Under the pieces are notes generated by a model. It saw only the letters and a program-made list of their open reading frames with translations, was not told where the DNA came from and did not search any database. This document shows, piece after piece, positions 7,062 through 45,930 of a stretch of 52,227 nt of DNA; the stretch's first letter is position 1; every line of letters starts with the position of its first letter. Both the position numbers and the translations under genes were made by a program. This DNA comes from a virus: positions 1 to 52,227 of the IMG/VR virus record IMGVR_UViG_3300044695_002763; one strand, given 5' to 3'.

Positions 7062-7205
7062 ATGCCACTATTTCAAGGAGATACGCAAACGATTATAAGC
7101 ATGAACATTCGCAAGTTAGTTAGCGAAGGTTATTCAAACGAGCAAGCCGCCGCGATAGCATACGCTGAAGCCGAGAAATACCGCAAAGCAAGAAACAAGA
7201 AATGA
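7062..7205 (+). CDS. 47-aa protein with helical NIRKLxxEGYSxEQAxAIAYAEA motif
   Basis: The short gene starts at 7062 and its stop overlaps the ATG of the ParB-like gene (ATGA). The motif EGYSNEQAAAIAYAEAEK resembles the short helical segment found alone or fused in many phage head and DNA-associated proteins (of the kind GxxxxQAVAIAYxxA). The unit 2 copy (42620-42763) has the same length and keeps the motif while the N-terminus varies. That pattern supports a real protein. Function unknown. Confidence 0.65.
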   Translation: MPLFQGDTQTIISMNIRKLVSEGYSNEQAAAIAYAEAEKYRKARNKK

Positions 7206-7783
7206 GCGTACAACTAATAAACATATCCGAGCTAACGGTTAACCCGAATAACCCACGCATTATTAAGGACGAAAAATTCGATAAGCTGGTGCAATCGATT
7301 AAGGAGTTTCCCGATATGCTAAAATATCGTCCGATAGTTGTGGACGAGAACAACGTTATATTAGGCGGTAATATGCGTTTTAAGGCGTGCAAAGCTGCCA
7401 AGCTAAAGCAAGTGCCAGTTATGAAGGCAAGCGAGCTTACAGAGGCTCAAAAGCGCGAATTTATAATTAAGGATAACGTAAGCGGCGGCGAGTGGGATTG
7501 GGCGGTGCTTCAAAACGAATGGGACACCGAACAGCTCGATGCGTGGGGGGTGGATATACCCGACTTCGAAGATAACATGACAAACAACGAAGATTATGAA
7601 GGGTTAGACCAATTATCTAAATTAGATAAGTTTATGAATGCAGAATTAAAAAGAATGTTTTTGGTTTATGAAAACCAAACATTTGAAAAGGTTGTAAGGT
7701 GGTTTGAAGAAAAACAAACAAAATACAACTGCGAAGACAACAGCACGTTAATTTTAAAACTAATGGAAAATGAAAACATTTGA
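7202..7783 (+). CDS. ParB/sulfiredoxin-domain protein, unit 1 C-terminal type
   Basis: This is a 193-aa protein. Residues 1-95 form a phage-type ParB N-terminal domain, with LTVNPNNPR at the start and the ILGGNMRFKACK motif (about 53-64) that corresponds to the nucleotide-binding G-E-R-R box of ParB. After about residue 116 (DAWGVDIP) the sequence is unrelated to the unit 2 protein; its own C-terminal part is AT-rich. ParB-like proteins of phages and mobile elements often sit beside DNA methyltransferases. Here the partner gene is a TET/JBP-type dioxygenase that overlaps by 14 bases. I infer that the C-terminal part is matched to the enzyme partner. Confidence 0.8.
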   Translation: MSVQLINISELTVNPNNPRIIKDEKFDKLVQSIKEFPDMLKYRPIVVDENNVILGGNMRFKACKAAKLKQVPVMKASELTEAQKREFIIKDNVSGGEWDWAVLQNEWDTEQLDAWGVDIPDFEDNMTNNEDYEGLDQLSKLDKFMNAELKRMFLVYENQTFEKVVRWFEEKQTKYNCEDNSTLILKLMENENI

Positions 7784-8600
7784 GCTTACTAAAATACGTG
7801 ATTGTAGCGAACTAATAAAACAAACGCCATCAAAAATCGGTTACAATACTTTAATTGATAGCGATACTATATTTACAAAAAACGGCAAAAACGTAGGGGT
7901 ATATATAAAAATAAAACACGAATTGATTAACGAAATAAGGAAGGCGGCTTTGGAAACAAAATATGTTAAAACATATAGAACTCGAAGGGCTTTACCTACT
8001 CAATCAAGTGTTTTTGGTTCGCTTCCAAGAATTCCATTAAGAAATGATTATTGTAGGTTTTCTTCACAAACAAAAAACGAAAAGAAAAATACTCAACGTT
8101 TATTTACATTTATGGAAGTGTTAACAGGCATATATAAAAAATACTTGCCCGAACAGTATAACCATGATTTAAAAGTAATAAGCGAAAATGTTAACCAAGA
8201 TTACCTATTAAAAGAAAACCAACCTTTTGCAACCGCAAACATTAATGTAAACCACGCTATAAAGTACCACAAAGATACGGGCAATTTTAGGGGAAACTTA
8301 TCAAATGTATTAATTTTAAAAAGTGGTATTAGCGGCGGGGAACTTGTTTTCCCTGAGTACGGTTTCGCGCTTGAACAAAGCGACAGCTATCTATCAATTT
8401 TTGACGGGCAAAACGAAATACACGGAGTAATGCCAATTGCCAAAACGGGCGAAAACCCATACCGCGCATCAATAGTGTATTACACTTTAGAAAACATGAA
8501 GCATTGTTACCCTTTTAAAATGGAAGTCGAAAGGCTGCAAAAAGTAGCCACTAAAAGAGCTGCAAATAGGGCAAGCAACAAAGACCCAAGGTCAAAATAA
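7770..8600 (+). CDS. TET/JBP-family 2-oxoglutarate/Fe(II) dioxygenase (DNA base oxidation)
   Basis: This is a 276-aa protein. The C-terminal half is a double-stranded beta-helix with the expected ligands: His167-x-Asp169 in YHKDTGN, distal His218 in NEIHGVMPI, and Arg232 in YRASIVYY for 2-oxoglutarate. The stretch SGGELVFPEYGFALEQ between them is typical of the TET/JBP group, which hydroxylates 5-methylcytosine or thymine in DNA. Phage TETs are normally paired with a C5-methyltransferase and glycosyltransferases. No such methyltransferase is visible in unit 1, so thymine or a host-made mark could be the substrate. The gene is more AT-rich than its neighbours, suggesting transfer. Unit 2 has a C5-methyltransferase in its place. 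Confidence 0.8.
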   Translation: MKTFELTKIRDCSELIKQTPSKIGYNTLIDSDTIFTKNGKNVGVYIKIKHELINEIRKAALETKYVKTYRTRRALPTQSSVFGSLPRIPLRNDYCRFSSQTKNEKKNTQRLFTFMEVLTGIYKKYLPEQYNHDLKVISENVNQDYLLKENQPFATANINVNHAIKYHKDTGNFRGNLSNVLILKSGISGGELVFPEYGFALEQSDSYLSIFDGQNEIHGVMPIAKTGENPYRASIVYYTLENMKHCYPFKMEVERLQKVATKRAANRASNKDPRSK

Positions 8601-8618: not shown

Positions 8619-8933
8619 ATGCCAAAGCCTGAGAACATAGAGCCACATAAATTTAAGAAAGGGCAAACGGGAAACCCTAACGGGAGACCGCGTAAGCTGC
8701 CCGAACTTGATAAGCTATTAGCCGATGTGTTAGGCGAGGAAAAGGACGGCGTAACAGCGGGCGAAGCGATATTAAAAGCAATACGCGCACGCGCCGCTAA
8801 AGGCGATGTAAGGGCTGCGGAGCTATTGTTAGACCGTGCATACGGTAAGCCGAAGCAAAGCATTGATAACACCATCACCACCACCGAGCCGCTTGTTATC
8901 ATTCGCACCGAACCGAGTAAACCAGCCGAATGA
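8619..8933 (+). CDS. terS: Terminase small subunit-like protein (DUF5681 motif)
   Basis: This 104-aa protein has the FKKGQTGNPNGRPRK motif near the N-terminus, as in DUF5681 proteins, and a helical region LADVLGEEKDGVTAGEAILKA with repeated basic residues. These proteins lie directly upstream of large terminase genes and recognise phage DNA for packaging. The next gene starts at 8930, overlapping by ATGA. The shared sequence between units resumes about 20 bases upstream of this start, marking the right edge of the modification-cassette swap. Unit 2 copy: 44342-44656. Confidence 0.75.
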   Translation: MPKPENIEPHKFKKGQTGNPNGRPRKLPELDKLLADVLGEEKDGVTAGEAILKAIRARAAKGDVRAAELLLDRAYGKPKQSIDNTITTTEPLVIIRTEPSKPAE

Positions 8934-10246
8934 ATTTTACACTAACTGAAACACAAACCACAGCCTTCGACATGGCGACCAACGGGGACAAAAGAGTAAT
9001 TGTCTTCGGGGGCGCTATACGATAACCGCCCCCGCTCGAAAGTGTGGGGGCAAAGATTCGCGGCGGTAAAACGTATTGGCTTCTATTAACTCTAACATCA
9101 CTTTGTTTAACATATCCTCGCAGCCGTTGGGCGATTATTCGTAAAAGCCTACCCGATTTAAAGCGTACCACGTTCCCGAGCTTTGCCTCAATAATGATGG
9201 ACGGCGTAAGTAGTTACGTTAAGAATTGGAATAGGGAAACGAACGTTATAACTTTTACAAACGGTTCGGAGCTTATGTTTATGGCAGAATCGTTTGACGA
9301 CGATAAAGACCTTAACCGCTTTCGAGGTTTAGAGATTAACGGCGCGGGCTTAGACGAAGTAAACGAATTACAGGAAGTAACATTCTACAAAGTTCAGGAA
9401 CGTATAGGCTCGTGGAATAAGGCACATGGTAAACCGCCTATCGTTTGCCTCGCAACGTGCAACCCCGCTCAGAACTGGGTTAAGTCAATTATATACAACC
9501 GATACCGCGAAAACACATTGCCCGAACGTTGGGCTTACATACCGAGCCGAATAACGGATAATCCACACATCGCGCCCGAATACCTCGAAGCGCTAAAGGA
9601 ATTACCGCCTATTCAATATGCTCGATTCGTTGAGGGCGATTGGGACGTACTCGATGACGTTGCAAACCCGTTCTTATACGCTTGGAGCGACGAAAAGCAC
9701 ATCGACGATAGCGTAACACATAACGCACACTTACCGACGTTTATAAGCGTCGATTTCAACATTAACCCGTTATGTGCTTTGGTTATTCAAAACGTTGGCA
9801 GCACGGCTACGGTAGTGGATGAAATAAAGATTGAGCGCGGCTCTATAGATGCGTTCTGCGATGCGGTCGAAGCATTGAACATACCAATGGGCTTAATACG
9901 TATAACAGGCGACGCAATGGGCAAAGGCGGCACAATACAGGAGCGCGATAACTCGAGCGCATACATTCAGATTAAACGCCGCCTCAAGTTAGCCGATAAT
10001 CAAATAATAATACCAGCGAACCCGCGCCACGTTAACAGCCGTATTGATTGCAACACGGCACTAAAGAAACTCGATATTCGCGTAAATAGTAAAAACTGCA
10101 AAGGGTTCGTTTTCGATGCTAAGCAAGTACAATGCAACGCGGACGGGCAAATAATAAAGAGCAATAGAAAAAACATTACGGAGCGTGCCGACTTTTTAGA
10201 TTGTTTTCGTTACTTTGTAAACGCAATTCTAAAGCGATACCTATGA
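8930..10246 (+). pseudogene. terL: Terminase large subunit split by a 39-base in-frame insertion with stop (recoded or broken)
   Basis: The frame opens at ATG 8930 and reads MNFTLTETQTTAFD...VIVFGGAIR, then meets TAA at 9023-9025. After 39 extra bases (9023-9061) the same frame continues with GGKTYWLLL to 10246. Unit 2 has GGAIRGGKT uninterrupted (44653-45930), so the insertion lies inside the P-loop. Downstream features are intact: Walker B-like INGAGLDEVNE, and a nuclease domain with ISVDFNINPL and ITGDAMGKGG. Everything else reads open, so the protein may still be made. One route is restart at GTG 9044, which loses the first P-loop Gly; others are ribosome bypassing or read-through. A sequencing or assembly fault is also possible. 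Confidence 0.85.
9008..9061 (+). other. Split-P-loop insertion with competing GC hairpins
   Basis: The segment CGCCCCC at 9027-9033 can pair with GGGGGCG at 9008-9014 (7 bp, loop holding CGA-TAA) or with GGGGGC at 9046-9051 (6 bp), so two hairpins exclude each other. The codon before the stop is CGA and the last inserted codon is CGC; both are read by one Arg tRNA (ICG) in many bacteria. Take-off and landing on such codons is the arrangement known from T4 gene 60 bypassing. This is suggestive only. Confidence 0.5.
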
Positions 10247-24496: not shown

Positions 24497-24548
24497 ATGC
24501 TGTAAATTAAGCAGTTACAAAAAAAGTTTAAATAATTGTATGAAATAG

Positions 24549-24579
24549 TTTGCAGATTCAAATAATGTTTGTATGTTTG
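24549..24579 (+). promoter_or_regulatory. Bacteroidota-type promoter
   Basis: TTTG (24549-24552), 19-base spacer, TATGTTTG (24572-24579). The same boxes occur before 4394, 33982 and 39045, which suggests coordinated (early) expression of these small genes. Confidence 0.85.
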
Positions 24580-24607
24580 CAGAGTTAAACATTTAAACAT
24601 TCACACT

Positions 24608-24814
24608 ATGAACACAGCAAACCTAATAAACGAAAACAACGTAGCACAATTTAAGTGCAAAGTTTTAACGCTTGTATGCCCTGCATACGGAACGGCTAAC
24701 TTGTTAAACGAAATTGAAACTGCAATGAGTATGTTTCAATATGAAAACGAAAGCGTTGAAACAATTGTTTTCGATTACTGCTTTTCTTGGCATCAAGATA
24801 AATATTCGATATAA
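24608..24814 (+). CDS. 68-aa small protein with its own promoter and terminator
   Basis: The start at 24608 is preferred; the upstream in-frame sequence is promoter and leader. The protein (MNTANLINENNVAQFKC...) has three Cys and an acidic C-terminal half. It stands alone between a promoter (24549-24579) and a terminator (24839-24868) within the late region, but its promoter matches those of the early genes 4394 and 33982. It is therefore probably an early or constitutively made accessory protein. Function unknown. Confidence 0.65.
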   Translation: MNTANLINENNVAQFKCKVLTLVCPAYGTANLLNEIETAMSMFQYENESVETIVFDYCFSWHQDKYSI

Positions 24815-27631: not shown

Positions 27632-28134
27632 CACCCGAGGAAATTAAAAAGCGAACCGACGCAATTTATAATGAATGGCTATCAGACTTTACGCCACTTT
27701 ATGAAGCACTTGAAGAATTAAAAAGGTTAATGCGTATTAGAATCTTTGAAACTTCGGGCGGTAACCTTAACACGGCGGGCGAAAAAATTCCATTACCCGC
27801 AAGGCGTGGCGGCAATTACAGTACGCCTTATTCACCCGCTTACACAAAAATAAAACAGCGCCGACCTATCCCACTTGAGTTAACGGGCTTTTTACGGCGT
27901 AATTTTTCAACCGAGCCGATACTCGAGCAAGGGTTAGCCGCTGCATTAATGCTTAATGATTTAGAATACGCAAAGGCGCAAGGCTTACAATTTGGTAGAG
28001 AGGTAAACCCGCGTTACACTTTCTTTAGAGGTTACGGTATTATATTTATACCAACTGAGGAAGAAGAAAAAGAATTTTTACGCATACACACACAGTTAAT
28101 AACTGAGCAAATTAATAAACAACTGGGAGCATGA
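27628..28134 (+). CDS. Neck/tail completion-like protein
   Basis: This 168-aa protein has an N-terminal helix, a GEKIPLPARRGGNYSTPYSPAYTKIKQRR segment broken by basic residues, and PLELTGFLRRNF, as in small neck or tail-completion proteins of siphophages (HK97 gp10-like or tail terminator). It overlaps both neighbours by ATGA. It is expected to seal the head or join it to the tail. The assignment rests on size, position and this weak pattern. Confidence 0.5.
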   Translation: MTPEEIKKRTDAIYNEWLSDFTPLYEALEELKRLMRIRIFETSGGNLNTAGEKIPLPARRGGNYSTPYSPAYTKIKQRRPIPLELTGFLRRNFSTEPILEQGLAAALMLNDLEYAKAQGLQFGREVNPRYTFFRGYGIIFIPTEEEEKEFLRIHTQLITEQINKQLGA

Positions 28135-30659
28135 TTTTAAAAACCATTATAGACCGTTTAAACCAACGAGTAGAAGTAAGTAATATATTCGACCGCATTT
28201 ACGGTTTATGTGAGCTTACAGGCGATAAGGGATGGATTTATTATATAGGCGACGGGCAAGCGCTACCCGTTACGGATTACGATGCTAAAGTAGGTACGCT
28301 ATTTTGGGCGAAGCGCGGCAAAGTAAATATTTCAAAAGTTGAAAATTTAAGGGTAAGCGGATGCAAACAAATGTATTCGACGAAATTTAACCTTTCAGCT
28401 TATGCCGTAGTTCGTAAAAACAATTTACCATGCGATAGCGAGGATGCGGGCGACTGGGTAGCCTCTCGCGTTTTTAAGTTGGTTAGCGGTCGCGATTATG
28501 GTTTTAAAGATATTATCGACGTTGTAAGCTACGAAGTAATCCCGAACGGGTACACGGTAGGCGACAAAACATTACCGCCTAACTTTGAGTTTGCAACGGT
28601 TGTAATCGAGGTTGAGGTTGAAATAGTAAGCGGTTCGGAAGATACTTGTTACGATATTTGCGATACGGGCGACATACCATTACCGCCCGACTTTTTGCCG
28701 TGTAACCCTTGCTTAACCGAGGTTGCTGTTGACGGCATTACAATAATCGGAAACGGTACGCCCGCCGACCCGTTGATTGCAATTGGTGGCGGTACATTAA
28801 TAGCCTTGCCGTTTACGACCGACCATTTAAGCGCAACGGGTAACGCTTACGCGATTGGTAACATCGTTTGGTACAATGGGAACGTTTATCGCTGCATCGC
28901 TGCGAATGATTCAATATTGCCAACTAATACAAGCTATTGGGTTAATCTTGGCGCAGGATTTCCAACGGTTCAACAACCTTCAGATTGGAACTCAACGAGC
29001 GGAAATAATCAAATATTGAACAAGCCAACAATTCCGGTTTTGCCTGCGACAATAGTTGAGGACGTAACCGCAACCGCGCCACTAAGTTCAAGCGGTGGAG
29101 CTACGCCCGACATAAGCATAACGCAAGCGGATAGCACAACAGACGGATACCTTAGCAGCGCAGATTGGAATACCTTCGATGGCAAGTTTGATGTGCCAAC
29201 GGGAACAAACTCGGACTACTTAGATGGAACAGGCGCACCTCAGCCATTCCCAACGCTTACAAATGGCACGGTTACATCGGTTGCGGCAACAGTACCTAAC
29301 CCGACAAACCCAGCATTCAGCGTTGCAGTTCCGAACTCAACCACTACGCCAAGCATTGACATAACTGCAAACGGAGTTGTAAGCCAGTACGTTCGAGGCG
29401 ATGGCTCTTTAGCTAACTTCCCTTTGGGGGGTGGCGGTGGCGCATCGGTTAACTATTACCTCAACGGCTCAATAAGTCAAGGCACGATAGGGGGTAATGC
29501 TTATTTCCAAATGAGCCGCACTCCAGTGCTCGGAGCTGGCACGGACTTTACACGCACAAACGCGCAAGGCAATGGCTATATCGCTCAATTCATAACGGAT
29601 GCAGGCGACCCAAGCCTTTTGGCAATCCCTTCAGGCAATTGGAACTTCGAGACCTATTTTAACGCATCGAGTGGCGGCGGCAATCCGAGCTTTTACATGG
29701 AGCTTTACAAGTACGATGGCGCAACCTTTACGCTAATTTCAACAGGGTCTACAAATCCCGAAGCGATTACAGGCGGCACGGTAGTCGATTTGTACGTTAG
29801 TGCACTTGCAGTACCTTCGACAACTTTGCTTGCAACTGATAGGCTCGCAGTACGCATTTTCGTAACTACATCGGGGCGTAACATTACGCTGCACACTGAG
29901 GACAACAACCTCTGCCAAGTAATCACAACCTTCACCACAGGGCTTAACGCGTTGAACGGATTGACCGCGCAAGTGCAAAACTTTGCAACGGGTACAAGTG
30001 GAACGGATTTCGGGATTACATCGGCAAGTGATACTCACACATTCAACCTACCAACTGCAAGCGCAAGCAATAGAGGCGCATTAAGCACAGCCGATTGGAG
30101 TACCTTCAACGGCAAGTTTAACACACCAAGCGGCACGACTGCGCAATATGTGCGAGGCGATGGAACGCTCGCAACATTCCCGACCTTGCCTACAATATTT
30201 AAGACTACAACAGATAGCGCAGGATTTACAAATAACTCAAACAATGTAGTATATACTCAACTGATTGCAGCAAACACCTTTGCAGCAGGCGATGTTATTC
30301 GCGTTAATTATCGCACAAGAAAAACTGGTACAGCAGGTAATCAAACATTAAGAATATATGTAAATTCCACGGCAGATTTAAGTGGTTCGCCTATATTAGT
30401 TGGTGGTTATCAGAATGCAGGAGCGAATATTTTTTTGACAAATCAAATTTTAAGACATTTGGTTATTAAGACAAGCACAAATAATACTGAGGTTATAATT
30501 GCTAACGCCGTTAGTACTGCATTTGATTATGGATTACAAGGAAGCGTTACAACTTGCGCTATAAATTGGACGCTTGCTCGCTACTTTGTTTTTGCAATTC
30601 AAAACACTCTTTCAACAGATACTAATTTTGGCTCAATGTACTTAATCGAAAAGCTATGA
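28131..30659 (+). CDS. Neck-domain plus fibre fusion protein
   Basis: This is an 842-aa protein. Residues 1-165 (TIIDRLNQRVEVSNIFDRIYG...) look like a small connector or tail-terminator domain. A CDTGDIPLPPDFLPCNPC hinge follows, then fibre-type sequence with repeats: ADWNTFDGKF and ADWSTFNGKF, and QYVRGDGSLANFP and QYVRGDGTLATFP. These repeats are typical of trimeric phage fibres. C-terminal beta-rich domains (about 440-600 and 690-842) would be the binding heads. An attached connector domain suggests a neck (collar) fibre and not a tail-tip fibre. The last 400 bases are more AT-rich, so the tip may be acquired. Confidence 0.6.
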   Translation: MILKTIIDRLNQRVEVSNIFDRIYGLCELTGDKGWIYYIGDGQALPVTDYDAKVGTLFWAKRGKVNISKVENLRVSGCKQMYSTKFNLSAYAVVRKNNLPCDSEDAGDWVASRVFKLVSGRDYGFKDIIDVVSYEVIPNGYTVGDKTLPPNFEFATVVIEVEVEIVSGSEDTCYDICDTGDIPLPPDFLPCNPCLTEVAVDGITIIGNGTPADPLIAIGGGTLIALPFTTDHLSATGNAYAIGNIVWYNGNVYRCIAANDSILPTNTSYWVNLGAGFPTVQQPSDWNSTSGNNQILNKPTIPVLPATIVEDVTATAPLSSSGGATPDISITQADSTTDGYLSSADWNTFDGKFDVPTGTNSDYLDGTGAPQPFPTLTNGTVTSVAATVPNPTNPAFSVAVPNSTTTPSIDITANGVVSQYVRGDGSLANFPLGGGGGASVNYYLNGSISQGTIGGNAYFQMSRTPVLGAGTDFTRTNAQGNGYIAQFITDAGDPSLLAIPSGNWNFETYFNASSGGGNPSFYMELYKYDGATFTLISTGSTNPEAITGGTVVDLYVSALAVPSTTLLATDRLAVRIFVTTSGRNITLHTEDNNLCQVITTFTTGLNALNGLTAQVQNFATGTSGTDFGITSASDTHTFNLPTASASNRGALSTADWSTFNGKFNTPSGTTAQYVRGDGTLATFPTLPTIFKTTTDSAGFTNNSNNVVYTQLIAANTFAAGDVIRVNYRTRKTGTAGNQTLRIYVNSTADLSGSPILVGGYQNAGANIFLTNQILRHLVIKTSTNNTEVIIANAVSTAFDYGLQGSVTTCAINWTLARYFVFAIQNTLSTDTNFGSMYLIEKL

Positions 30660-34539: not shown

Positions 34540-34565
34540 TTTTTAACCCTTTAATACTTTTTAAA

Positions 34566-38327: not shown

Positions 38328-38954
38328 ATGAAAAAATCGTTTGTACTTTATACGGATAACTGGGTAACATTAAAGCACCTTTCTAATGAGCAACTCGGAG
38401 AATTAATGCGAATGCTTTTTGAATATCAAATCGAAGGTGCAACGCCTGAACCGTCAAACCCTCTATTTATTGCTTTCGGGTTTATTCGCTCCGCTATGGA
38501 TAGAGATTTAGAAAAATGGAACGAACGAGCTGAACGTGCGAGGGTTAATGGTTTAAAAGGTGGACGACCAAAAGAAAACCAAGATGGTTTACAAGAAACC
38601 CAAAAAACCCAGTCGGTTAAATCAAAACCCAAAAAACCTGTTAATGTAAGTGTAAGTGTTAATGATAGTGTAAGTGTTAATGTAAATGCAAATGCTAACG
38701 CTAACTTTAAAAAGTGGAGCGAGCAAGATTTGATTGAAGCTATGACACCTTACAAGGATAGATACCCTAAAGAACTTTTAAACGCTTTCTTTAACTATTG
38801 GACTGAGCCGCTCGCAAACGGTAAAATACGTTTGACCTCTCAAGACGCTTGGGATACTGGTCGAAGGTTGGTAACATGGAATAAACGCGACACCGATAAA
38901 CAACCTAAAAACTCAACAGTAACACGCGCCTCGATGGGGCTAAAGATGCAATGA
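38328..38954 (+). CDS. Replication initiator/organiser-like protein (unit 2, other C-terminus)
   Basis: This is a 208-aa protein. The N-terminal domain aligns with 3616-4302 (KSFVLY, LSNEQLGELMRMLFEYQ, GGRPKEN). The linker is a Val/Asn/Ser repeat, and the C-terminal domain (about 125-195, LIEAMTPYKDRYPKELLNAFFNYWTEP) is unrelated to that of unit 1. The final residues STVTRASMGLKMQ are again shared. An exchange of the C-terminal domain suggests a different origin or helicase contact, although the DnaB proteins are nearly identical. Confidence 0.7.
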   Translation: MKKSFVLYTDNWVTLKHLSNEQLGELMRMLFEYQIEGATPEPSNPLFIAFGFIRSAMDRDLEKWNERAERARVNGLKGGRPKENQDGLQETQKTQSVKSKPKKPVNVSVSVNDSVSVNVNANANANFKKWSEQDLIEAMTPYKDRYPKELLNAFFNYWTEPLANGKIRLTSQDAWDTGRRLVTWNKRDTDKQPKNSTVTRASMGLKMQ

Positions 38955-38985
38955 CAAAAATATTTTTAAAATAATTTAGAAAAAG

Positions 38986-39016
38986 TTTGCAGAATCAAAA
39001 AAGAGTTGTATGTTTG
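38986..39016 (+). promoter_or_regulatory. Bacteroidota-type promoter (unit 2)
   Basis: TTTG (38986-38989), 19-base spacer, TATGTTTG (39009-39016), the same as 4335-4365. Confidence 0.85.
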
Positions 39017-39044
39017 CCTCATCAAACTCTTAAACACTTACACA

Positions 39045-39251
39045 ATGACAACTTCAATTTTAACTACAAAACTTCGCAACGGTGTAACAGTATTAGCAAA
39101 AGCTGATAGGTATGGCATAAACGCCGTAGGTTACTCAAACCTAACACAAGCTAACGCACGTCAAATTAAACTTTCTTTAGAGGGTATTGATTGCTCGGTA
39201 TATCGCACACCATGTAATATGTCGGTAACCTACATTAAAATAAATAACTAA
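39045..39251 (+). CDS. Small highly conserved early protein (unit 2)
   Basis: This 68-aa protein is identical to that of 4394-4600. Only about three bases differ over the gene, far fewer than elsewhere, so the RNA or DNA itself may also be constrained or recently exchanged. Confidence 0.7.
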   Translation: MTTSILTTKLRNGVTVLAKADRYGINAVGYSNLTQANARQIKLSLEGIDCSVYRTPCNMSVTYIKINN

Positions 39252-42763: not shown

Positions 42764-43299
42764 GCGTACAACTAATAAACATATCCGAGCTAACGGTTAA
42801 CCCGAACAACCCGCGCATTATTAAGGACGAAAAGTTCGATAAGCTGGTGCAATCGATTAAGGAGTTTCCCGATATGCTAAAGTATCGCCCGATAGTAGTG
42901 GACGAGAATAACGTTATTTTAGGCGGTAATATGCGTTTTAAAGCGTGCAAAGCTGCCAAGCTAAAGCAAGTACCCATTATGAAGGCAAGCGAGCTTACAG
43001 AGGCTCAAAAGCGCGAATTTATAATTAAGGATAATGTAAGCGGCGGCGAGTGGGATTGGGCGATGTTGCAAAACGAATGGGATACTGAACAGCTCGATGC
43101 GTGGGGCCTAGATGTGCCGAGTTTTGAAACACAAGACTATTCAGATAAAAACGAAGAAATTGATATAGATTCTTTAGATTTTGAAATGATTATAAAACTT
43201 AAATATACCGAAGAAGAGTATAATTTAGTTCGTAATCAATTAAGTAAAATAGCTTCAACACCTGAGCAAGCGGTTTGGAAATTATTAGGCAATGAGTAA
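42760..43299 (+). CDS. ParB/sulfiredoxin-domain protein, unit 2 C-terminal type
   Basis: This is a 179-aa protein. Residues 1-115 match the unit 1 protein with only three or four changes, including the NNVILGGNMRFKACK motif. The C-terminal 60 residues are different (DYSDKNEEIDIDSLDFEMII...YTEEEYNLVRNQL). This acidic segment plus small alpha/beta tail is frequently seen in phage ParB-like proteins paired with DNA methylases. The gene overlaps a C5-methyltransferase by 8 bases. The boundary of the swap lies within this gene. Confidence 0.8.
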   Translation: MSVQLINISELTVNPNNPRIIKDEKFDKLVQSIKEFPDMLKYRPIVVDENNVILGGNMRFKACKAAKLKQVPIMKASELTEAQKREFIIKDNVSGGEWDWAMLQNEWDTEQLDAWGLDVPSFETQDYSDKNEEIDIDSLDFEMIIKLKYTEEEYNLVRNQLSKIASTPEQAVWKLLGNE

Positions 43300-44323
43300 A
43301 TATAGGTTTCCATATAAGTGGTATTTAAAAGACGGCTATCCTCAAAGCAATGGCTTAAAAGTGTTCGGCACTTTTATTTGTGGGGGTGGCTCAACTATGG
43401 GCTATAAATTAGCTGGCTTTGAGCATTTAGGAGGCGTTGAAATAGACCCACCAATAGCAGACGTTTATAAAACTAATCACAACCCAAAATATTTGTTTGT
43501 TGAAGATATTCGAGATTTTGCGAATAGACTAGACTTTCCTGAAGATTTATACAACCTTGATATTTTAGATGGTTCGCCGCCTTGCAGTTCGTTTAGTATG
43601 GCAGGCAATCGTGAAAAAGACTGGGGCAAAACAAAAGTATTTAGGGAGGGGCAAGCAGAACAGCGATTAGATGATTTATTTTTTGATTACATACGACTTG
43701 CAAAAAAGTTACAGCCAAAAGTTGTTATAGCTGAAAATGTAAAAGGATTAATTCAAGGCAATGCAAAGGCATACGTTCACAGGATAAAAAAAGAGTTTGA
43801 AGCTGCAGGATATAAAGTTCAATTGTTTTTGCTTAATGCTGCGAGTATGGGCGTACCTCAAAAACGCGAAAGGGTATTTTTTATTTGTCAAAGAAACGAT
43901 TTAAACTTTCCTAAATTAGAATTAAATTTTAATGAAGAGTCAATAAAATTAGGTGAATTCATAGATAGCTCAAAAGGATTAAATTTATCAAAAGACGGAA
44001 AGTTATATTCAGATTGGTTACAAAGAATAGAAACAGATAAAAATTTTGGAGATATTTGTTTAAGAACAGAAAAAAAACAAAAAAGCTTTGGAAGAGTTTT
44101 GATTAAAAAAAATGATTATGCTCCGACAATTGTAAGCGGAAATCAATATATTTATTTTGATGAATTTAAAGAAATATCAAATCAAGATATTCAACAAATA
44201 GGTAGCTATCCTCTTGATTACAACTTTAAAAAGATTGAGCCAAAGTATTTAATAGGTATGTCAGTTCCTCCTGTTATGACCGCACAGATAGCAACTGAAA
44301 TTTATAATCAATGGTTTAAGTAA
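43292..44323 (+). CDS. DNA cytosine-C5 methyltransferase B, unit 2 only
   Basis: This 343-aa protein has motifs I (FGTFICGGGSTMGYKLAGF), II (GGVEID), IV with Cys98 (DGSPPCSSFSMAG), VI (VIAENVKGL), VIII (QKRERVFFIC), and a motif X-like end (GMSVPPVMTAQIATEI). It is a complete C5-methylase, clearly different from enzyme A. It stands exactly where unit 1 has the TET/JBP dioxygenase, and is AT-rich like it. The substrate would be phage DNA; the recognition site cannot be read from the sequence. With enzyme A, two cytosine marks are possible in unit 2 phage DNA. Confidence 0.93.
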   Translation: MSKYRFPYKWYLKDGYPQSNGLKVFGTFICGGGSTMGYKLAGFEHLGGVEIDPPIADVYKTNHNPKYLFVEDIRDFANRLDFPEDLYNLDILDGSPPCSSFSMAGNREKDWGKTKVFREGQAEQRLDDLFFDYIRLAKKLQPKVVIAENVKGLIQGNAKAYVHRIKKEFEAAGYKVQLFLLNAASMGVPQKRERVFFICQRNDLNFPKLELNFNEESIKLGEFIDSSKGLNLSKDGKLYSDWLQRIETDKNFGDICLRTEKKQKSFGRVLIKKNDYAPTIVSGNQYIYFDEFKEISNQDIQQIGSYPLDYNFKKIEPKYLIGMSVPPVMTAQIATEIYNQWFK

Positions 44324-44341: not shown

Positions 44342-44656
44342 ATGCCAAAGCCAGAAAACATAGAGCCACATAAATTCAAGAAAGGGCAAACGGGAAACCC
44401 TAACGGGCGACCCCGCAAGCTGCCCGAACTTGATAAGCTGTTAGCCGATGTATTAGGCGAAGAAAAGGACGGCGTAACTGCGGGCGAAGCGATATTGAAA
44501 GCAATTCGCGCACGCGCAGCTAAAGGCGATGTAAGGGCTGCGGAATTATTATTAGACCGTGCCTATGGTAAACCGAAGCAAAGCATTGACAATAATATAA
44601 CAACAACTGAGCCGCTTGTTATCATACGCACCGAACCGAGCAAACCGAATGAATGA
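44342..44656 (+). CDS. terS: Terminase small subunit-like protein (unit 2)
   Basis: This 104-aa homologue of 8619-8933 is almost identical; the last residues differ (SKPNE in place of SKPAE). Confidence 0.75.
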   Translation: MPKPENIEPHKFKKGQTGNPNGRPRKLPELDKLLADVLGEEKDGVTAGEAILKAIRARAAKGDVRAAELLLDRAYGKPKQSIDNNITTTEPLVIIRTEPSKPNE

Positions 44657-45930
44657 ATTTTACGCTAACCGAAACACAAACGACCGCGTTCGATTACGCC
44701 GTTAATGGCAGTAAACGCGTTATTGTTTTCGGGGGCGCGATTCGAGGCGGCAAAACGTATTGGCTTCTATTAACTCTAACATCGCTTTGTTTAACATACC
44801 CGCGTTCGAGGTGGGCGATTATTCGTAAAAGCCTACCCGATTTAAAGCGTACCACTTTCCCGAGCTTTGCCTCAATAATGATGGACGGGGTAAGTAGTTA
44901 CGTTAAGAACTGGAATAGGGAAACGAACGTTATCACTTTTACAAACGGCTCGGAGCTTATCTTCATGGCTGAAAGTTTCGACGACGATAAAGACCTTAAC
45001 CGCTTTAGAGGTTTAGAGATTAACGGCGCGGGCTTAGATGAAGTAAACGAATTGCAGGAAGTAACATTCTACAAAGTTCAGGAACGTATAGGCAGTTGGA
45101 ATAAAGCGCATGGTAAGCCGCCTATCGTTTGCCTCGCAACGTGCAACCCCGCTCAAAACTGGGTTAAGTCGATTATTTACAACCGTTACCGCGAAAACAC
45201 ATTACCCGAGCGTTGGGCGTACATACCGAGCCGAATAACCGATAACCCACACATCGCGCCCGAATACTTAGATGCACTAAAAGAATTGCCGCCTATTCAA
45301 TACGCCCGTTTCGTTGAGGGCGACTGGGATGTATTAGACGACGTTGCTAACCCGTTCTTATACGCTTGGAGCGACGAAAAGCACATCGACGATAGTGTAA
45401 CGCACAACGCGCATTTACCTACGTTTATAAGCGTCGATTTCAACATTAACCCGTTATGCGCTTTGGTTATTCAAAACGTTGGCAGCTCGGCTATGGTAGT
45501 GGATGAAATAAAGATAGAGCGCGGCTCGATAGATGCGTTCTGCGATGCGGTCGAAGCATTGAACATACCAACGGGCTTAATACGCATAACAGGCGACGCA
45601 ATGGGCAAAGGTGGTACAATACAGGAACGCGATAACTCGAGCGCTTACATTCAGATTAAACGCCGCCTTAAGTTAGCCGATAACCAAATAATTATACCAG
45701 CGAACCCGCGACACGTTAACAGCCGTATCGATTGCAATACCGCGCTCAAGAAACTCGATATACGCGTTAATAGTAAAAATTGCAAAGGCTTTGTTTTCGA
45801 TGCTAAGCAAGTGCAATGCAACGCGGACGGGCAAATAATAAAAAGCAATCGAAAAAACATTTCTGAGCGTGCTGACTTTTTAGATTGTTTTCGTTACTTT
45901 GTGAACGCAATTCTAAAGCGATACTTATGA
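44653..45930 (+). CDS. terL: Terminase large subunit, intact (unit 2)
   Basis: This is a 425-aa protein. The P-loop GGAIRGGKT (about residues 27-35) is continuous, in contrast to unit 1. Walker B-like segment INGAGLDEVNE, coupling motif region VCLATCNPAQNW, and nuclease-domain acidic strands (FISVDFNINPL, ITGDAMGKGG, ADFLDCFRYF) complete the ATPase-nuclease architecture. The enzyme pumps DNA into the prohead and cuts concatemers. Overlap with the small subunit is ATGA-like. This copy is the reference for reading the broken unit 1 gene. Confidence 0.93.
   Translation: MNFTLTETQTTAFDYAVNGSKRVIVFGGAIRGGKTYWLLLTLTSLCLTYPRSRWAIIRKSLPDLKRTTFPSFASIMMDGVSSYVKNWNRETNVITFTNGSELIFMAESFDDDKDLNRFRGLEINGAGLDEVNELQEVTFYKVQERIGSWNKAHGKPPIVCLATCNPAQNWVKSIIYNRYRENTLPERWAYIPSRITDNPHIAPEYLDALKELPPIQYARFVEGDWDVLDDVANPFLYAWSDEKHIDDSVTHNAHLPTFISVDFNINPLCALVIQNVGSSAMVVDEIKIERGSIDAFCDAVEALNIPTGLIRITGDAMGKGGTIQERDNSSAYIQIKRRLKLADNQIIIPANPRHVNSRIDCNTALKKLDIRVNSKNCKGFVFDAKQVQCNADGQIIKSNRKNISERADFLDCFRYFVNAILKRYL

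Follow-up and report, generated by a model that had tools for sequence, protein, structure and literature searches.

To our knowledge, gene 60 of bacteriophage T4 has so far been the sole well-established case of long ribosome bypassing in bacteria and phages, and with this single case the essential features are therefore inseparable from the accidental ones by comparison. In T4, a hairpin at the A site acts together with a 5' stem-loop to bring about take-off and to move the ribosome forward (PMC11194080, PMC5009743), a homing endonuclease is encoded 5' of gene 60, and the 50-nucleotide (nt) insert possibly gives protection against the nuclease (PMC5009743). The byp elements of Magnusiomyces (Saprochaete) occupy 81 sites in many mitochondrial genes and are reported to be largely independent of messenger RNA (mRNA) context, the bypassing proposed for the terminase gene of Streptomyces phage Hau3 concerns a much shorter gap with a UUA codon and no comparable cassette described, and the 29-nt hop of Prevotella loescheii concerns a host gene and is a single case without follow-up (PMC5009743). 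The present study deals with the large terminase gene, terL, of the window, that is, the whole 52,227-nt IMG/VR virus record IMGVR_UViG_3300044695_002763, in which an insertion opening with a stop codon lies within the sequence for the Walker A motif. Comparison of related sequences suggests, with a probability of roughly 0.87, that this insertion is a programmed translational bypassing element of the T4 gene 60 type, and such an element together with a likely homing-linked spread is very probably the best explanation of the locus as a whole.

The window corresponds to about 1.5 genome lengths, relatives of its phage being 34–38 kb, and contains two related head-to-tail units, the second starting at 34540; a strain-switching assembly run round a circular genome is more likely than a tandem. 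Alignment of both units showed that terL of unit 1 is exactly 39 nt longer than the insert-free allele of unit 2 (44653–45930, plus strand), the product of which matches Pfam Terminase_6N and PHROG TerL. Both units encode VIVFGGAIR before the insertion site and GGKTYWLLL after it, and the insert separates the Arg from the second Gly pair of GGAIRGGKT. In unit 1, on the plus strand throughout, the first open reading frame (ORF1; 8930–9022) comprises TerL codons 1–31 (MNFTLTETQTTAFDMATNGDKRVIVFGGAIR), of which the last, CGA (9020–9022), is the putative take-off codon. The insert (9023–9061) has TAA (9023–9025) as its first codon and CGC, the putative landing codon (9059–9061; CGA, CGT or CGC in relatives), as its last, leaving a non-coding gap of 36 nt with TAA first (9023–9058), and ORF2 (9062–10246) runs from GGKTYWLLL to the stop and encodes the remainder of the large terminase. 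An earlier note on this DNA had described a stop-first, in-frame insertion of 39 nt between GGAIR and GGKT, with FGGAIR kept upstream and the remainder of the gene intact, and this description agrees with the alignment and with the ratio of nonsynonymous to synonymous substitution rates (dN/dS) of ORF2, about 0.04. Its extent for the element, 9008–9061, was right as to the insertion itself and wrong as to the boundaries, because the 57 nt 5' of the insert also diverge between the two units, far above the remainder of the gene; the real unit is thus larger and spans about 8963–9061.

Relatives were gathered from IMG/VR viral contigs, the source of all insert-bearing examples, by tblastn, pattern scans and a profile search. 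After removal of duplicates, 45 distinct insert-bearing and 96 distinct insert-free genes were obtained, tblastn matches measuring 1,275 nt for insert-free genes and 1,314–1,316 nt for genes interrupted at this site; since the element itself served as query in part of the scans, the insert-bearing share should not be read as a frequency. The inserts are 39 nt (19 genes), 40 nt (one gene) or 41 nt (25 genes) long, which sets the downstream frame at 0, +1 or +2, and no fewer than 25 different gap sequences and 29 different element sequences are among them. Regardless of length, ORF1 after CGA joined to ORF2 after the last CGN gave GGAIRGGKT in every case. Context-free pattern scans for the element in genes besides terL yielded only scattered, chance-like matches.

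Readthrough or frameshifting across the gap, which would add about 13 residues to the P-loop, is compatible with the 39-nt alleles, which are in frame, and with five 41-nt alleles (L067 type), which are open in the landing frame. However, the 40-nt allele is closed by stops, as are 20 of those with 41 nt, and the added residues would fall within Walker A, making this explanation hardly credible. In terL of L067, L068, L069, L071 and L090, an ATG overlapping the take-off codon opens the landing frame across the gap, and these genes may possibly give a second product. Translation restart past the gap, which the earlier note had placed at the GTG at 9044 and which would leave a truncated or two-piece terminase, could draw on an in-frame start before the landing codon in 17 of the 19 39-nt alleles and in 5 of the 25 41-nt alleles. 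In 20 of the 25 41-nt genes, however, TAA abuts the landing codon in the landing frame; in 23 of all 45 genes, the stretch from the last in-frame stop to the landing codon is devoid of start codons, and the next start is at least seven codons downstream, beyond GGKT. Restart would also detach the conserved N-terminal part, the strand leading into the P-loop, and it is thus highly improbable, the restart at 9044 finding no counterpart in most 41-nt alleles. With frameshifting, readthrough and restart closed for the family, bypassing or precise RNA-level removal is left.

The dicodon preceding the insert is ATACGA in all 45 insert-bearing genes compared with 4 of the 96 insert-free genes (Fisher test, 1e-32, uncorrected for kinship), and the landing codon is CGA in 20 genes, CGT in 14 and CGC in 11, with AGR and CGG never occurring. 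In bacteria, CGA, CGC and CGU are read by one inosine-wobble tRNA-Arg (ICG), CGA forming the weakest pair. A fixed weak take-off codon combined with a landing codon that varies within the range of one tRNA thus fits bypassing, and the pairing of CGA and CGC through one Arg tRNA that had been proposed for unit 1 would extend, as CGA to CGA, CGC or CGT, to 45 of 45 genes. In a known bacterial frameshift, CGA AAG of Bacillus subtilis cdd, CGA likewise occupies the P site (cited in PMC5009743). A stop directly follows the take-off codon, as in T4 but not in bypassing universally, in 15 of the 45 genes, including unit 1, and the other 30 carry UGG, UGU or GGN.

In unit 1, the gap contains a hairpin at 9029–9050 (plus strand; GCCCCCGCUCGAAAGUGUGGGGGC, about 9028–9051), with a 9-bp stem and a GAAA tetraloop of the GNRA type, the stem of this copy having one U-U mismatch. 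Across the family, the hairpin starts six nt past the take-off codon, its 9-bp stem being capped by a GNRA loop, either GAAA or GCAA; 98.5% of cells were paired among 29 distinct sequences, with two-sided changes in four of the nine pairs. Furthermore, a long 5' stem-loop with CGA in its base can be folded from the 60 nt preceding the gap in all insert-bearing genes (8967–9022, plus strand, in unit 1, take-off codon included), and this fold was absent from insert-free genes. When the gap hairpin and the 5' stem-loop were taken together, 22 sequences gave 97.4% paired cells and 54 two-sided cells, compared with a mean of 16.8 after shuffling and 0–7 in slid structures, and 29 sequences gave 95.6% paired cells and 67 two-sided cells, compared with 23.7 and 1–9, respectively. 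One stem pair joins base 1 of an Asp/Asn/Tyr codon with base 3 of a Val codon and runs G-C, A-U and U-A as the amino acid changes. The 5' stem-loop was far more stable than synonymous recodings of the same peptide, with a mean z of −3.4 compared with −0.6 for insert-free genes, of which a single one reached −4.2. The earlier note had remarked on hairpins around the stop; the family has a gap hairpin with a GNRA loop and a 5' stem-loop, both covarying, in the places of the A-site hairpin and the 5' stem-loop before take-off that are expected of bypassing. As regards a possible nascent-peptide signal, the upstream peptide is kept in most insert-bearing genes and not in L245, where it is very different (NQATAGTHRVVV) and a comparable 5' stem-loop still folds.

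Downstream of the insert, dN/dS was 0.036–0.041 in three insert-bearing groups versus 0.042 in insert-free genes. Apart from the record of the window, 14 insert-bearing records were searched; 13 of these show one TerL, and the 14th has the halves of one TerL gene at its contig ends. Considering the intact ORF2 under strong purifying selection and the single TerL, the essential packaging ATPase must therefore come from the insert-bearing genes, in which a non-coding gap separates two parts of a conserved protein while the remaining gene is functional. A reading of the insert-bearing genes as dead alleles, as decoys or as products of faulty assembly is consistent with the presence of insert-free alleles in every subclade and with the joining of two strains in the window record itself; however, the dN/dS of about 0.04, the single TerL in phage-length contigs, the number of independent contigs and the linkage of the insert to its own upstream sequence leave this with next to no probability. 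Chance or assembly error was dismissed because dozens of metagenome contigs, independent of one another, have this insert. The remnant of a dead intron or intein, which the earlier note had considered, fits neither the dN/dS of ORF2 nor the covarying structures, and no ribozyme core or protein-splicing domain was found in the 39–41-nt insert, with no Rfam match.

An HNH endonuclease gene separates the genes of the small and large terminase subunits in 21 of the 43 insert-bearing loci with enough upstream sequence, compared with none of the 93 insert-free loci (Fisher test, 4e-13, uncorrected for kinship). The ORF encodes 174–206 amino acids (aa), including NUMOD4 and HNH_3 domains, and shares about 20 nt with the start of terL; in these loci a free-standing HNH gene adjoins the interrupted gene on its 5' side. 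The HNH genes are themselves under selection, with a dN/dS of about 0.13 from a rough alignment. No HNH gene was found at unit 1 of the window, and unit 1 is thus the bypass part without the endonuclease, the HNH gene having been lost or never present. In L245, about 150 nt lie between terL and the small terminase gene, perhaps as the remnant of a lost endonuclease gene. The HNH protein of L068 has an N-terminal half of one type and a C-terminal helix–turn–helix half of another, as if the DNA-binding part had been exchanged.

In a tree built from the 3' portion of terL, insert-bearing and insert-free alleles are intermixed in every subclade, and at least 19 insert/no-insert changes are forced by well-supported branches. 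Third-position identity between insert-bearing genes and their nearest insert-free relatives was 0.81 in the gene body and 0.34 in the stem-loop segment, whereas the latter reached 0.98 between nearest insert-bearing pairs; everything from the stem-loop to the landing codon is thus passed on together, and the inheritance of the unit, with its upstream segment, is patchy and mobile. That a single allele merely undergoes excision or phase variation was ruled out, since the upstream 57 nt differ too (0.34 versus 0.81). Between far clades there was no sign of recent long-range transfer of the HNH gene, HNH identity (0.67) not exceeding TerL identity (0.71). The cassette probably spread with the HNH homing endonuclease encoded upstream, to which it would confer resistance.

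Several points weigh against bypassing. The absence of AGR at the landing position (0 of 45 versus 9 of 96 genes) is only suggestive, an Arg codon being expected there anyway, and we judged AGR avoidance too weak alone to prove that the tRNA re-pairs. Most alleles have UGG or GGN after the take-off codon, unlike the stop of T4. Since the insert-bearing sequences are kin, they are less independent than the Fisher values and the shuffle counts suggest, and these significance values are indicative only. Finally, RNA-level excision of an unfamiliar kind, by a tiny intron or by endonucleolytic cutting and rejoining, followed by ordinary translation, would be compatible with the sequences: GGAIRGGKT would be restored in all three length classes, and introns are often accompanied by HNH endonucleases. 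However, 39–41 nt is far under the size of any known self-splicing intron, no Rfam family matched near the insert, and the invariant CGA at take-off, the free choice of CGA, CGC or CGU at landing and the upstream coding stem-loop are expected of bypassing instead, making removal from RNA improbable.

Bypassing like that of T4 gene 60, as the earlier note had suggested, is favoured by the site, the codons, the structures, the selection and the three length classes. Considering these features and the HNH linkage, which were established by comparison among the sequences, we infer the following scenario for the jump and the order of its steps. The ribosome would read TerL codons 1–31 and pause with CGA in the P site, where only a weak wobble pair, I-A, would hold tRNA-Arg (ICG). 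At this point, the GNRA hairpin, starting three bases past the A-site codon, would stand at the mRNA entry and the top of the 5' stem-loop at the mRNA exit, an arrangement like that described for T4 gene 60 (PMC11194080, PMC5009743). The peptidyl-tRNA may then release and the mRNA slide; the lower 5' stem, take-off codon included, could close behind the ribosome only after mRNA movement, and its closing may serve as a ratchet that pulls forward and bars return. The tRNA would re-pair with CGA, CGC or CGU 36–38 nt past the take-off codon, and decoding would continue from GGN, so that Walker A would read GGAIRGGKT without a break. The junction Arg of the GGAIR–GGKTYW peptide is a trypsin cleavage point.

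The gene at 8619–8933 (plus strand) probably encodes the small terminase subunit, a role assigned because the gene directly precedes terL; its unit-2 homologue matches DUF5681 (Pfam PF18932) with E=1.3e-17. Immediately 5' of the small terminase gene is a variable DNA-modification module, in which unit 1 (7202–8600) has a ParB-like protein along with an oxygenase of the Tet/JBP type, and unit 2 (43292–44323) a DNA methyltransferase. An 842-aa protein encoded at 28131–30659 has a sub-threshold match to CBM_5_12, a chitin/cellulose-binding module, and a dispersed repeat of 100 nt in unit 1 (24511–24611) is 77% like a region of unit 2 near 38948–39048. The relatives in bacterial genomes (Fibrisoma montanum, 30%) and in Flavobacterium and Polaribacter phages (28–32%) are all distant, and Bacteroidota are therefore no more than the presumed hosts. 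Neither isolate phages matching at the DNA level nor a solved structure matching TerL by sequence were found.

We lean towards the view that a ribosome-bypass cassette is a third general route of homing endonucleases into essential genes, beside self-splicing introns and inteins, and that T4 gene 60 is one case of a recurrent kind, which had a separate origin here and continues to spread among terminase alleles. Essential phage genes such as insert-bearing terL are probably annotated as broken. The terL family offers natural variants with three lengths, covarying structures and matched insert-free controls among close relatives, making testable the cause of ribosome release, the guidance of landing and the role of bypass elements as nuclease-resistance alleles. 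A search of the open literature, with most subscription journals and bioRxiv outside its scope, returned T4 gene 60, byp, Hau3 and Prevotella only and no such family, and an earlier description elsewhere is possible.

The terL element and T4 gene 60 share an essential phage gene, a non-coding gap, one tRNA for take-off and landing, an A-site hairpin, a 5' coding stem-loop, an upstream free-standing HNH endonuclease (mobA in T4) and a proposed nuclease protection. However, T4 bypassing concerns a topoisomerase and leads from Gly GGA to GGA over 50 nt, whereas the terL element concerns a terminase and would lead from Arg CGA to CGN with inserts of 39–41 nt in three frames; its A-site codon is often not a stop, its 5' stem-loop reaches into the take-off codon, its hosts are presumably Bacteroidota, and it has many natural variants. 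The Magnusiomyces byp elements, short, patchy and mobile inserts that ribosomes skip, resemble what is proposed for terL, whereas the terL element is found in phages, in one gene and at one site, with dedicated flanking structure. Hau3 resembles it as a phage terminase gene with proposed bypassing, homology between the two being not known, and the Prevotella loescheii adhesin gene resembles it in the skipping of a short stretch in Bacteroidota, but has no cassette. Introns and inteins that home to conserved P-loops similarly target an essential conserved motif and are endonuclease-linked; unlike these, the terL element has only 39–41 nt, is without a ribozyme or splicing domain, and has its endonuclease gene outside the body of the interrupted gene.
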